Assembly: GCA_021324465.1 (NCBI GenBank)
Contig: JAJPJB010000033.1
Span: forward strand, 1-56,017
DNA: 56,017 nt
Direction: 5' to 3'
From: Hyphomicrobiaceae bacterium
Lineage (GTDB): Bacteria; Pseudomonadota; Alphaproteobacteria; Rhizobiales; Xanthobacteraceae
Below the pieces are notes generated by a model. It saw nothing but the letters and a program-made list of their open reading frames with translations, had not been told where the DNA came from and searched no databases. This document shows, piece by piece, positions 41,853 to 46,468 of this stretch. The position numbers and the translations under genes were made by a program. Numbering within the stretch: position 1 is the first letter of the stretch; each line of letters opens with the position of its first letter.

Positions 41853-41857
41853 TTCGG

Positions 41858-42001
41858 AATTACAGTGACAGTGCAAGATCACGGAATTGACGGCTACGCG
41901 GGGGATTGGTGCGCATGGCCGACGACGCGGGCGAGGCGAGCCATGCGGCATCATGGCCGCAGCGCGACATCGTATCAATTGAGTGCACTGTCACCGTAAT
42001 T
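41858..42001 (-). mobile_element. RAYT-derived MITE-like element, copy A (144 bp)
   Basis: The right end is CAATTGAGTGCACTGTCACC plus GTAATT; the left end AATTACAGTGACAGTGCA is its imperfect complement. Just inside the right end, on the minus strand, an ATG begins MARLARVVGHAHQ, the decayed opening of a REP-associated transposase (see copy B). It is the shortest and most degraded of the three copies and lies between the second AKR stop and the ABC permease stop. Confidence 0.8.
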
Positions 42002-42019
42002 TGCCGGAGCGGGCATGAG

Positions 42020-43213
42020 CTAGCGTCCCGAGAATACTATGCCCGGTTCAAGCGTGAGCGCACAACGTGCGCTGATTGCGGCGGATACGACGCTTACAAT
42101 GAACACCATCAGTGCGCCAACGGCCGGCGTGAACCACATCATCCGAAACGGATAATCAGACCCTGTCAGAAACTGACCGGCTACGGCGCACACGCCCAGG
42201 CCCAATCCCGTTCCGATAATCGCGCACAATGCCGCTTGCACAAAGATCATGGTCATGAGCCGTTGCGGGGTGGCCCCCATGGCTCTGAGCACCGCGTATT
42301 GCCTGAGATTTTCGTTGGTGAACATGTAGAGTAGCACGCCCATCACGCCGAAGCCGACCAGAATCGCGATCGAAAGCATGGTTTCAATATCGCCGACATC
42401 CTCGGAATTAGCGAGAATCCACCACACCGTGTCGGCCTTGAAATCGTCGGATGCGCGGGCGCGCAATCCAGTGCGGTCTTCGATGCGTCTCGCCAACGCA
42501 CGCGGCGCGAGCCCTGGTGCTGCAGTCACCAAGACAAATGTCAAACGTCGCCGCTCAGGCAGGAGAATGCGCAGCGCATTGGAATACGTCGTGTACAACA
42601 ACGGCCGCGGCGGATAGCGCGACAAGGCCCGCGCTCGACCGACAACGGTAACGCGGCGGTCATTGACTAATAAATCATCGCCGGGGCCGAGCTTGCGCGT
42701 GGGCACGTTGAGACGCGGGGGGCCGCCGTACCATTGGTCAGCCGTCTCGACCGGCGTTTGCAGTTTGCCGGTGGTGCCGCCGGGGTCGACGATCACAGCA
42801 TCGGGCGCGCGCAGAGCCATAGCCGTCACGCCGTCCTGCAACGGCGGCACGCCGGCCAACGTCGCATCGTCTACGCCGACGACCTGGAATGACTGGAAGC
42901 GGCCGTTTGGAAAGCGAACGTCGGCTCTGCCGAGCGCAAGCGGCACCGCAGTTGAAACGCCCTCGACGCTGCGCACACGGTCAAGAGCAGAGCTGGGCAT
43001 ATTGGTGGTCGGCTCGACCGATCTGACTGCAGGATCCATGACCCAGACATCGGTCCTTGGGTTCTCCGTGATCAGCGCAAAGCCGCGGGTCATGAAGCCG
43101 GCAAAGTACGACCCAGCGAAGGTGACGAGGAACGACGTGAAGGCAATGCCGATGAGAAGGCCGGCATATTTCACTCGGTCCCCGAGCAACATCTTCACCG
43201 CCACGCGAAGCAT
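42020..43213 (-). CDS. ABC transporter permease, MacB/FtsX-like (DevC type)
   Basis: A 397-residue permease with an N-terminal helix (YAGLLIGIAFTSFLVTFAGSYF), a large ~230-residue extracytoplasmic domain and three C-terminal helices with the FtsX motif NLRQYAVLRAMGATPQRLMTMIFVQAALCAIIGTGLG. This is the topology of type VII ABC systems that power export or membrane-lipid handling. It overlaps the membrane-fusion gene by one base (ATGA), so the three genes ABC-MFP-permease form a tight operon resembling DevBCA. The substrate is unknown. Confidence 0.9.
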   Translation of the reverse strand: MLRVAVKMLLGDRVKYAGLLIGIAFTSFLVTFAGSYFAGFMTRGFALITENPRTDVWVMDPAVRSVEPTTNMPSSALDRVRSVEGVSTAVPLALGRADVRFPNGRFQSFQVVGVDDATLAGVPPLQDGVTAMALRAPDAVIVDPGGTTGKLQTPVETADQWYGGPPRLNVPTRKLGPGDDLLVNDRRVTVVGRARALSRYPPRPLLYTTYSNALRILLPERRRLTFVLVTAAPGLAPRALARRIEDRTGLRARASDDFKADTVWWILANSEDVGDIETMLSIAILVGFGVMGVLLYMFTNENLRQYAVLRAMGATPQRLMTMIFVQAALCAIIGTGLGLGVCAVAGQFLTGSDYPFRMMWFTPAVGALMVFIVSVVSAAISARCALTLEPGIVFSGR

Positions 43214-44175
43214 CAGGGCGCATGCCTATCGAGCTCGGACGTGATGCGATCGGACGGCCCGAGCTGTCTATTCTTCCCGGTCGGAACAGGAGGCGCCTCA
43301 ATGAACACATTCATCCGCTGGCCGATATAGACAGGCAATGTGCCGTGAACGAAACTGTAGATGACCTGCAAGACGCGCGTATCGGTTCGCTCAGTACTAG
43401 CGCCGGTTAACGACGTCTTCGGCACGACATAGCGTTCGATCCTCTCGAACTTAAGCGGCGCGTTGATCTGAGGGTTGCCGGGGACATAGGCCACAGCAGG
43501 AGCGGTCGACTCTACCCGCCAGGCATCGGTTTCATCGATATCGACGCGAATGTTTAGAATGTTGTCATCGCCAAACAGCATCAGAGGCGGAGAAACCGTA
43601 CCGCTTTGGGCGAACTCGCCAAGATGGGTGTTGATCTGCAATATGCGACCATCGACCGGAGCTCGGATCGTGTGCCGCTCAATATCAACGTCGATCCGAT
43701 CGGCCTGTGCTCTTGCGACCGTAACTGCCGCCTCAGCGATGCCAACGTCATAGCGCCGGTTTGCCAAATCCACGGCGCTGATCGAACTGCCCGAAGTCAG
43801 ACCTTGTCCAACCTTGAGCAAGTTCTGGGTCTTGTCGAGGTTCGCTTCCGCTTCCTGCACCCGTGCTGTCGCGACTTGGAGCTCAGCGGATAGGTCACGC
43901 GCGTCAAGCTTAAAGAGTGGTTCTCCGGTGCCGACCCAATCGCCCCATTTGACAAAGATAGCATCGACAATTCCCGAAACGGGCGTGCCGATCGCTATAT
44001 TGCCGGTGCTGGCTTCAATGAGACCGGTCCCGGCGACGTAATTTTGGTACGGCGCTCGCGCTGACGGCAACGGCGCCGGTGCGGCCGGCGGAGCCTCGTT
44101 GCCAAGAATGACAGCGGCAATCGCGGCTATGAAGCCAATTCCAGCAAGGAAGGGCAGCACGTATTTGCGAGTCAT
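43213..44175 (-). CDS. HlyD-family membrane fusion protein (DevB type)
   Basis: A 320-residue periplasmic adaptor with one N-terminal helix (YVLPFLAGIGFIAAIAAVIL). The lipoyl halves are TGNIAIGTPVSGIVDAIFVKWGDWVGTGEPLFKLD and RHTIRAPVDGRILQINTHLGEFA, separated by an alpha-hairpin of about 65 residues (LQVATARVQEAEANLDKTQN). It links the inner-membrane permease to the envelope, often with TolC. Its start overlaps the ATPase stop and its stop the permease start, by ATGA in both cases. Confidence 0.92.
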   Translation of the reverse strand: MTRKYVLPFLAGIGFIAAIAAVILGNEAPPAAPAPLPSARAPYQNYVAGTGLIEASTGNIAIGTPVSGIVDAIFVKWGDWVGTGEPLFKLDARDLSAELQVATARVQEAEANLDKTQNLLKVGQGLTSGSSISAVDLANRRYDVGIAEAAVTVARAQADRIDVDIERHTIRAPVDGRILQINTHLGEFAQSGTVSPPLMLFGDDNILNIRVDIDETDAWRVESTAPAVAYVPGNPQINAPLKFERIERYVVPKTSLTGASTERTDTRVLQVIYSFVHGTLPVYIGQRMNVFIEAPPVPTGKNRQLGPSDRITSELDRHAP

Positions 44176-44957
44176 GGCACTTGCTCCCGATCCTTGCCCT
44201 CCACGATTTCTGTGATCCTGCCATCGTCCATTCGCGCAATACGATCGGCGAACTCGAAAATGCGGTGATCGTGGGTGACCACGATGACCGTTCGATTGGA
44301 CTTCTCCGTGAGGCTGCGCAGCACTTCCATGACCGCGTGCCCAGTCTCGTGATCGAGATTGCTGGTTGGCTCATCACACACCAGCAAAGCTGGATCATGC
44401 ACCACCGCCCTCGCGATTGCCACTCGTTGTTGCTGGCCGCCACTGAGGTTTGCCGGGAGCGCGGTAGTCCGTGCGCCAAGCCCAATCGTTGCAAGCAGCT
44501 CGTTGGCGCGGGATTTAGCGCTCTTCCAAGGGACACCTTCGATGAGCAACGGGATCGCGACGTTCTCGACCGCGGTAAGCGCTGGAAGCAAATTAAACAA
44601 CTGAAAAACGAAGCCGATTGATTTGGATCGGAAAACGGCGCGTTCTTGCTCACTCATGCGCTGTACGTCGCGCCCGAGCACGTTGCACTCCCCTGCATCA
44701 TGATTGAGGATGGTCGTGATGACTGAAATGAGCGTCGTCTTGCCGCACCCGGACGGGCCGACGATCATGAGGAGTTCGCCGCGTCTGACGTCAAGATCAA
44801 TACCACGGAGTGCGGCGACCTTGGCCTCATCGCTGCCATAGCTTTTTGTCACACCTCGGCAGGAAACAACAATGTCGCATCCCGGCGCCGAGGTGGGTGC
44901 CGATTGCATCGAACCAAAAGGCTCCGATCGTACCAAAGGGTCTCCTGGCGATAGCAC
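44172..44957 (-). CDS. ABC transporter ATP-binding protein (DevA/MacB/LolD type)
   Basis: A complete ABC ATPase: Walker A GPSGCGKTT, Q-loop FVFQLFNLLPALT, signature LSGGQQQRVAIARA, Walker B LLVCDEPTSNLD, H-loop VVTHDHRIF. The LFNLLPALTAVENVAIPLL segment marks the LolD/MacB subgroup that pairs with FtsX-like permeases. The start is not sure: GTG 44957 opens the frame, but ATG 44909 (MQSAPTSAPG) or a later site is also plausible as neither has a strong ribosome-binding site. First gene of the three-gene exporter operon. Confidence 0.92.
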   Translation of the reverse strand: MLSPGDPLVRSEPFGSMQSAPTSAPGCDIVVSCRGVTKSYGSDEAKVAALRGIDLDVRRGELLMIVGPSGCGKTTLISVITTILNHDAGECNVLGRDVQRMSEQERAVFRSKSIGFVFQLFNLLPALTAVENVAIPLLIEGVPWKSAKSRANELLATIGLGARTTALPANLSGGQQQRVAIARAVVHDPALLVCDEPTSNLDHETGHAVMEVLRSLTEKSNRTVIVVTHDHRIFEFADRIARMDDGRITEIVEGKDREQVP

Positions 44958-45036
44958 GGTGGCACATGCCTGACCAAGAGATAAAATGACCGCATGCGCG
45001 GTGATAATAACCTTTGGAGCGCGAATGGGATTACTG

Positions 45037-45356
45037 AATTACGGTGACAATGCACTCAATTGCGTCCCTCGCCAACAGGTTTCTGTCCGCGCTTGCCGGG
45101 CCGCAGCCGGCGCGGTGAGGCGTTCGGTGCCGGCGAGAAAGCGATCGTCGCCGAGCCGGCGCCGATACATTGAGTTAGCAGTTAGTCGCCGTCGCCGAAG
45201 TTGGTCGCCGTCGCCGAAAAACGTGCGCACCCGACCGTTGCTCCGCCGCGTGACATGGTGCGGATGGCCGGAAACGACGAGGCGGGCGAGGCGAACCATG
45301 CGGCATCATGGCCGCAACGCGACATCGTATCAATTGAGTGCACTGTCACCGTAATT
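45037..45356 (-). mobile_element. RAYT-derived MITE-like element, copy B (320 bp)
   Basis: The ends are near-perfect 26-bp inverted repeats (left begins AATTACGGTGACAATGCACT; right, complemented, AATTACGGTGACAGTGCACT). On the minus strand, ATG 45299 starts MVRLARLVVSGHPHHVTRRSNGRVRTFFGDGD, the N-terminus of an IS200-like REP-associated tyrosine transposase. This joins a C-terminal part, LGDDRFLAGTERLT and, with one frame change, RRLRPGKRGQKPVGEGRN then stop, the TGA lying inside the terminal repeat. The HUH catalytic middle is missing. A 15-bp unit GTCGCCGTCGCCGAA is repeated at the joint. Confidence 0.85.
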
Positions 45357-45399
45357 CGTAATTGTCGTAATCGCAGTTGCAAAAACAGAAGGCCGCGCA

Positions 45400-45837
45400 T
45401 CAAGAGCGAACCGGATCAATCACTTCCAAAAACGGAAATCGGTTGAAATCGGTATCCCGCGTGCAAATTTGGCGTATGCCGTGCTCACGCATCAATATGG
45501 CGGTGTGCGCGTCGTGCACCAGATTGCCGGCCAGATCGGGCAATTCGGAGAGGGTCTCGCCTGCAACATCGGGGTGGCGTTGCGTCGGAACGAGAATGCC
45601 GAGGCCCGGTGACTCCAACAGCGCCGTAACAAAGCTCCACGCTGCAGTCGCACTCCAAGGTCGCAGCATCACCCGTGGATGCGTCGTGACGCGCAAGAAT
45701 TCATAGATGATAGGCCATGTCGTGTACCACGCATCCGGGCGGATCCGCTGTCGGTCCAGCCATCCGCGACATCCGGCATGAAAATGCGAGTCGGCGTCGG
45801 CGGCATACACCAGCACATTGGTGTCGACGACGAGCAC
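45400..45837 (-). CDS. vapC: VapC-type PIN-domain toxin
   Basis: A 145-residue PIN-domain ribonuclease. The acidic metal-binding set is complete: D5 in LVVDTNVLVYA, E46 in IIYEFLRV, D109 in LVHDAHTA and D128/D130 in CTRDTDFNRFP. Such toxins cut tRNA or rRNA when freed from their antitoxin. It overlaps the antitoxin gene by one to four bases and lies downstream of it. It ends only 44 bp from element copy B. The nature of its RNA target cannot be told. Confidence 0.92.
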   Translation of the reverse strand: MLVVDTNVLVYAADADSHFHAGCRGWLDRQRIRPDAWYTTWPIIYEFLRVTTHPRVMLRPWSATAAWSFVTALLESPGLGILVPTQRHPDVAGETLSELPDLAGNLVHDAHTAILMREHGIRQICTRDTDFNRFPFLEVIDPVRS

Positions 45838-46076
45838 TATCGACCTTCCATGGCGTGATAGAGGGCATCGCGGTCGGCGATGTCGACGCGGATGCCGCCG
45901 CTGTGAAACGTCGGTAGCGGCGGAATTGTCCCCCGCCGGCGCGGCGATCGCAGCAGCAAACGTAGGGCCGTCTCAACCAGTTCGGACATGGTGCGACCTT
46001 GCCGCGCAGCCTCGCGCCTGAGTTCGGCCATCACGGTATCGTCTATATTGAGCGTAGTCTTCATATGGGTAGCCAT
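45837..46076 (-). CDS. vapB: Ribbon-helix-helix antitoxin (VapB-like)
   Basis: A 79-residue antitoxin: MKTTLNIDDTVMAELRREAARQGRTMSELVETALRLLL is a ribbon-helix-helix DNA-binding domain, and the C-terminal tail (TFHSGGIRVDIADRDALYHAMEGR) is the usual toxin-neutralising segment. It is translationally coupled to the PIN toxin. ATG 46076 or ATG 46064 (MKTTLN) may be the start; neither has a clear ribosome-binding site. Autoregulation is expected from the family. It lies between elements B and C. Confidence 0.9.
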   Translation of the reverse strand: MATHMKTTLNIDDTVMAELRREAARQGRTMSELVETALRLLLRSPRRRGTIPPLPTFHSGGIRVDIADRDALYHAMEGR

Positions 46077-46117
46077 ATCACAAGGATGGGAGTACGGCCA
46101 GAGGTCCGACTTACATT

Positions 46118-46392
46118 AATTACGGTGACAGTGCACTCAATTGCGTCCCTTGCCAACGGGGTTCGGTCCGTGCTGGCCAAATCGATCGTCGCCGAGCGAG
46201 GCGGCCGATACATTAATTTAGTCGCCGTCGCCGAAGTTGGTCGCCGTCGCCGAAAAACGTGCGCGCCCGGCCGTTGCCCCGCTGCCTGACATGGTGCAGA
46301 TGGCCGGGAACGACGAGGCGGGCGAGGCGAGCCATGCGGCATCATGGCCGCAACGCGACATCGTATCAATTGAGTGCACTGTCACCGCAATT
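46118..46392 (-). mobile_element. RAYT-derived MITE-like element, copy C (275 bp)
   Basis: Same ends as copy B (left AATTACGGTGACAGTGCACT, right TGCACTGTCACCGCAATT) and the same orientation. ATG 46335 on the minus strand begins MARLARLVVPGHLHHVRQRGNGRARTFFGDGD and then stops soon; the later part encodes LGDDRFGQHGPNPVGKGRN before the TGA in the terminal repeat. The duplicated GTCGCCGTCGCCGAA is present again at the internal joint, so B and C share one ancestral deletion. Confidence 0.85.
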
Positions 46393-46468
46393 ACGCTAAT
46401 TCTACAATTGCTGTGACTTTCCCGGTCTCGCGCCAGTCCCGCGCCAAGCGCGGGTCGCAAATGACACG

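Follow-up and report, generated by a model that had tools for sequence, protein, structure and literature searches.

The three short elements and their coding remnants

The window analysed here, 56,017 nucleotides of a Hyphomicrobiaceae bacterium (contig JAJPJB010000033.1 of assembly GCA_021324465.1, positions 1 to 56,017), contains three short elements, which we call copies A, B, and C and regard as putative miniature inverted-repeat transposable elements (MITEs). They share a single orientation and have one inverted repeat in common at their ends, and they retain the first, and in two cases also the last, codons of a Y1 transposase. A preliminary description, made from the sequence alone, had presented them as a three-copy family formed by internal deletion of a transposase gene associated with repetitive extragenic palindromic (REP) sequences. 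The features are as follows.

41858..42001, minus strand: copy A, a putative MITE of 144 bp and the most reduced of the three; inverted ends at 41858-41875 and 41984-42001
41921..41944, minus strand: coding remnant of copy A, MARLARVV, codons 1-8, of which RVV matches the aligned intact parents
45037..45356, minus strand: copy B, a putative MITE of 320 bp; inverted ends at 45037-45062 and 45331-45356
45204..45299, minus strand: N-terminal part of copy B, Y1 transposase codons 1-32 (MVRLARLVVSGHPHHV...FFGDGD)
45170..45203, minus strand: deletion joint of copy B, ~19 nt tandemly duplicated plus a short filler, with parent codons ~33-185 absent
45056..45169, minus strand: C-terminal part of copy B, the final ~35 transposase codons with a small frameshift; stop TGA at 45056-45058, inside the terminal repeat
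46118..46392, minus strand: copy C, a putative MITE of 275 bp; inverted ends at 46118-46143 and 46367-46392; the joint of B and an extra loss of ~40 nt
46240..46335, minus strand: N-terminal part of copy C, codons 1-32 (MARLARLVVPGHLHHV...FFGDGD)
46137..46210, minus strand: C-terminal part of copy C, a shortened remnant LGDDRF...GPNPVGKGRN with its stop within the terminal repeat; weak by its own score

All three positions, the orientation and the 26-nt ends of B and C were as previously given, the arms of B and of C being complementary at 25 of 26 positions each. The arms of A proved to be shorter (18 nt, 94%), its left end being cut short. The minus strand of copy B starts with AATTACGGTGACAGTGCACTCAATTG, followed by a leader of ~31 nt and then the reading frame, and translation of this strand gives MVRLARLVVSGHPHHVTRRSNGRVRTFFGDGD for B, MARLARLVVPGHLHHVRQRGNGRARTFFGDGD for C and only MARLARVV for A. 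Over their 32 N-terminal codons B and C share the pattern MxRLARLVV..HHV..RTFFGDGD, and their single-frame C-terminal endings are GKRGQKPVGEGRN (B) and GPNPVGKGRN (C), each followed by a stop, which in C is the TGA at 46137-46139 inside the repeat. When compared with 83 transposases from relatives, copy B matched at codons 1-44 (E 8e-12) and at codons 197-219 (E 0.002), and copy C at codons 1-39 (E 4e-12); none of 365 shuffled segments matched the 83 transposases. The C-terminal match of C is weak when taken alone (E 0.69), and we found no C-terminal remnant in A. The claim that B and C carry the last codons of the gene, with the TGA inside the repeat, was confirmed. The family itself is real but extends beyond the three copies, as one further remnant, with a single end, was found outside this contig (C22:2301-2472). 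As a separate observation, short pieces of truncated ends (CGTAATT, ATTACGG) form ladders directly outside the repeats at 45357-45380 of the window, and also in the flanks of L018, L024, L196, L199, and L203.

An intact parent element in related genomes

The check proposed in the preliminary description, a search for an intact gene with the same termini, succeeded in relatives: three of the 20 genomes in our survey of the genus, the organism's own among the 20, carry one. In the own genome (4.57 Mb in 107 contigs, 99.67% complete) no intact transposase gene was found. Among 198 genomes of the family we found intact genes, ~220-230 codons long, with the repeat of A, B, and C around them, and full-length transposases with matching N- and C-termini and matching ends occur in the genus, in the family, and across the Alphaproteobacteria. 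From a titled collection, the best 79 of a larger number of loci (L046-L124) were examined, one of which lacks a readable open reading frame, so that 78 genes were scored. The 79 loci come from Bradyrhizobium, Xanthobacteraceae, Magnetospirillum, Rhizobium, Mesorhizobium, Caulobacter, Sphingomonas, and other taxa.

The core of the repeat, facing inward and with up to 2 mismatches, was present on both sides of 56 of the 78 genes, on one side of 19, and on neither side of 3; shuffled cores, used as a control, gave on average 0.78 two-ended cases among 78. The distance from stop codon to core in the 56 two-ended cases has a median of 4 nt and is at most 12 nt in 43 of them. Given repeats on both sides and a stop so close to the core, the unit is an element, mostly 725-815 bp long, with its gene set flush between the ends. 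Of 297 genomes of the order, 19 have the 19-base repeat (up to 1 mismatch), and the reversed pattern, searched as a control, gave zero among the matches listed.

Two of the parent proteins exceed the cut-off of 23 bits for the Pfam family Y1_Tnp (PF01797; 33.4 and 34.3 bits), and all 16 aligned members match the NCBIfam model NF047646 (REP-associated tyrosine transposase, RAYT) with E values of 0.001 or lower (best 4e-22). Residues H60, H62, and Y119, an HxH pair and one tyrosine, are invariant across the same 16 members, and we take them to be the catalytic residues. The nearest solved structure, both by sequence and by predicted fold, is the TnpA-REP structure 4er8, and the predicted protein fits the TnpA-REP fold and the TnpA-REP branch. 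A single repeat end folds no better than its shuffles (z +0.75 and +0.84), no GTAG foot was found at the ends of A, B, and C, and the repeat motif of the parent, GGTGACAG, is one letter off GGGGWSAS. The parent is a 'TIRYT' or 'TIRtron', a relative of TnpA-REP with terminal inverted repeats on both sides; we prefer this to the earlier label of a REP-associated parent, since no stable hairpin forms from one end alone. Judging by its intact gene, the parent would be autonomous. One of the loci with this transposase element, L118, is from a metagenome bin titled Bordetella parapertussis; the title may reflect an error of binning or naming.

The deletion joint and the origin of the copies

Alignment of B and C to five intact elements showed that codon ~32 is joined to codon ~186 in both, and the catalytic middle, codons ~33-185, is indeed gone. 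The joint common to the two copies consists of a tandem repeat of ~19 nt and then the short filler; ~40 nt that B has kept are additionally absent from C, and the two are identical at 251 of 273 aligned sites. The outer 100 bp flanking each copy match one another at chance level only. Since B and C share the joint and their flanks are unrelated, the deleted form was copied as a repeat-bounded unit, which is indirect support for a putative mobilization in trans. The longest word common to both flanks of any one copy is 3-4 nt, and no target duplication longer than 4 nt was seen at A, B, or C; insertion by Y1 enzymes is expected to occur without a long target duplication. Copy A probably branched off before the ancestor of B and C acquired its RLV change, as A has RVV like the intact genes and B and C have RLV.

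We are therefore confident, if short of certain, that A, B, and C are MITEs: non-autonomous, internal-deletion derivatives of a TIRYT in which a Y1/HUH gene sits flush between terminal inverted repeats of ~20-26 bp. The copies are short, have inverted ends and no working transposase, occur several times, and have an intact parent with the same ends. The proposal that the MITE derives from the transposase gene itself is thus upheld by the intact parents found in the genus, the family, and the Alphaproteobacteria. The accompanying idea that inverted ends had grown around the coding termini is abandoned: because intact parents already possess these ends, with the stop a few nucleotides from the core, those of A, B, and C were inherited. 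Slippage or template switching during single-strand processing could have produced the internal deletions, and the ancestor of B and C might then have been copied in trans by a transposase that recognizes only the ends. The own genome may since have lost the intact transposase, or its 107-contig assembly may lack it. The copies are probably immobile now, as there is no intact transposase in the own genome.

Deletion derivatives, bare repeat pairs, and tandem copies elsewhere

We surveyed repeat-to-repeat segments of 50-620 bp in the window and in 171 loci (L046-L124 and L153-L248), leaving aside L001-L045, L125-L152, and the own-genome duplicates L226, L233, L235, and L237. The 84 segments recovered represent 73 distinct ones, some nested in one another. 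Nine of the 73 contain a transposase remnant, and these nine correspond to six elements, namely B, C, L086, L090, L116, and L218, so that deletion derivatives exist in four lineages besides the own one. The L116 derivative is a unit present three times in tandem; compared with the intact gene on the same contig (L116:3850, from which positions are counted), it cleanly lacks positions 263-823. In L218 two stretches are missing and an inner C-terminal piece is retained, and both L086 and L090 retain N-terminal codons.

The other 64 distinct segments, copy A included, have no remnant detectable by their own score. The preliminary description had named ends without coding remnants in unrelated contexts as grounds for rejecting a gene-derived origin; such ends are indeed seen widely, and for most short repeat pairs no derivation from the gene can be traced, but the origin of B and C is unaffected. 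Among the repeat pairs are a kind of 86-90 bp, seen 17 times in stretches from one genome (G236; L183-L194), and a kind of 69 bp, seen five times in another (G002); one further search covered 29 genomes chosen for holding such elements. In the 86-90-bp kind the inner ~40 bp are variable and the ends mostly extend to GAATTAC, an appearance that is REPIN-like without hairpin ends.

A second copy or piece of the gene lies within a few kb in 20 of the 79 loci, which include two pairs sharing an organism or metagenome-assembled genome (L079/L080 and L098/L115). All 33 extra copies or pieces, direct partial tandem pieces among them, are co-oriented with the main one. A partial copy is joined in tandem to a full copy, at the repeat boundary or a few bases from it, in L049, L090, L098, and L115 (left side), in L121 (right side), and in L020 and L024; the complementary half of the partial copy in L020 was not found downstream. 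Such partial tandem copies may be one-ended products of the transposase. Local single-strand insertion beside the element's own end, or one-ended re-replication, would yield such an arrangement.

The islet between the copies and alternative explanations

Copies A and C lie at the two edges of a 4.6-kb islet, the order of which is A, an ATP-binding cassette (ABC) exporter operon, B, a VapBC pair, and C.

41853..46468, no strand assigned: islet with A and C at its borders; congeners G146, G198, G201, and G049 lack it between their aldo/keto reductase and glutathione S-transferase (GST) genes
42020..44957, minus strand: genes between A and B, encoding an FtsX/MacB-like permease, an HlyD-like fusion protein, and an ABC ATPase (Pfam)
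45400..46076, minus strand: genes between B and C, a PIN-domain (VapC-like) and a VapB-like gene

The arrangement raises the alternative that the short copies belong to a composite mobile islet, in which the outer ends of A and C (or the pairs A-B and B-C) carried the exporter and VapBC genes into the gap between reductase and GST. The two genes are separated by ~10 bp in G146 and by ~25 to 200 bp in G201, G198, and G049, and in the window 5 bp separate the reductase stop from the start of the block, and 76 bp lie between C and the end of the GST gene. Moreover, the block has a lower GC content (59.5%) than its neighbours, and that at third codon positions (GC3) is 64-72% in its genes versus 78-80% in the two neighbour genes. 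Among the matches listed from 151 genomes, no end-to-end DNA match of the ABC operon was found outside the own genome, the best being 243 bp at 68%. However, no repeats were found within ~1.5 kb of VapBC relatives in three genomes, nor was there any common cargo among the genes located between repeated copies elsewhere, and the place may just be variable: G193 (L240) has ~950 bp of other DNA in the gap, and in three more congeners what comes after the reductase is not GST but a stretch found further along in the window. From the DNA in G193, the gap may be an insertion hot spot. We consider the composite islet an unlikely account, and slightly more doubtful still is its specific form, in which the deletion copies served as portable ends, a trans-acting single-strand transposase having used the outer repeats of A and C to import the islet. 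The islet fits a composite mobile unit, but it also fits a piecemeal build-up at a variable site followed by MITE hops; because the VapBC relatives in three genomes have no adjacent repeats, we hold the composite possible, not likely. If true, this would make the islet a composite transposon within the TnpA-REP branch; the REPtrons of that branch reportedly do not move as a unit (PMC6006769).

That the copies are dead remnants of an intact element, which was duplicated with its surroundings and decayed in place so that the short forms were never mobile units, would agree with their position within 4.6 kb in one orientation, and with the co-oriented and partly tandem copies at the 20 loci described above. 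We nevertheless judge it improbable, as B and C have a derived joint in common yet unmatched flanks, and the fourth remnant sits on another contig. It is harder still to believe that these are MITEs of a DDE transposase that contain pieces of the transposase gene by chance: the terminal inverted repeats look classical and do not fold on themselves, but there is no target duplication, the words shared by flanks reach only 3-4 nt, and the same repeats stand on both sides of Y1 genes in 56 of 78 cases.

Several observations weigh against the origin of A, B, and C as MITEs of a TIRYT, which we nevertheless favour. Only nine segments of the 73, or six elements, demonstrate the path from gene to MITE. 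Copy A is not tied to the gene by its own score: the preliminary description had claimed first codons in each copy, which is true of B and C, and A has just eight, with a weak match (E 0.11), so that its membership in the family rests on identity at 79 of 82 sites to B and likewise to C. L090 contains an extra internal repeat end and unrelated DNA, so a simple deletion does not account for it, and the point at which its N-terminal part breaks off is close to that of B and C (codon ~32). The parents scored 69.5, 75.5, and 73.9 (L046) bits with NF047646, below the cut-off of 80. An exact empty site was not found for any single copy, no transposition event was observed, and a co-oriented cluster of copies could stem from local duplication. 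Finally, a local GC skew test for a bias in fork direction was flat (32 vs 31).

Relation to known systems

TIRYTs and deletion elements derived from IS605 are already known, and parts of this story therefore exist in print, as far as the accessible text of these sources goes. Relatives of RAYTs flanked by terminal inverted repeats were named 'TIRYT' or 'TIRtron', and families of their end repeats described, by Di Nocera et al. (2013; PMC3733652); 20 of the 26 TIRYT cases were subsequently placed in Y1 subclass 2.1 (Quentin et al., 2018; PMC6006769). The elements studied here resemble them in having a TnpA-REP-like gene and long terminal inverted repeats, some of which overlap the gene end, and in repeat families that occur as singles, dimers, and clusters (PMC3733652, PMC6006769). 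They differ in the motif, which is GGTGACAG here and GGGGWSAS in many, but not all, published cases (PMC3733652), although the present repeat type may be among those published, and in the gene-derived deletion element, none of which we found described for TIRYTs in the accessible parts of these two papers. A TIRYT-derived deletion MITE with coding tips was likewise not found described in the literature searched, insofar as its text was available.

In Haloquadratum, IS605-type elements have been reduced to PATEs (palindrome-associated transposable elements) by repeat-mediated deletion of the core, and one PATE, HqIRS71, keeps part of the C-terminal coding region (PMC3119063, accessible text). 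Core deletion and the retention of a coding part are thus common to both systems, whereas PATEs come from haloarchaeal elements and lack the terminal inverted repeats that are present here.

The comparison with REPINs and RAYTs is based on the available portions of Bertels and Rainey (2011; PMC3116915), who suggested that the ends of an IS200-like ancestor gave rise to REPINs, which is one proposal for their origin. In both systems inverted ends occur as short pairs, which are proposed to be non-autonomous IS200-like derivatives mobilized in trans. However, REPIN ends are palindromic, whereas a single end here forms no stable hairpin; RAYT parents are single-copy, whereas here 20 of 79 loci have a second copy or piece close to the gene; and some derivatives here retain coding tips. 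Repeat pairs of the REPIN type are found widely in bacteria, and the question of where they come from is still open. Here the intermediates survive: an intact element, gutted copies, in five lineages, in which the lost codons can still be recognized, and bare ends in short pairs. They make the step from a gene to a parasitic mini-element testable with one enzyme and defined substrates, and the gutted copies, set beside their intact relatives, show how parasitic mini-elements can arise, which is useful for understanding the origin of REPIN-like elements.

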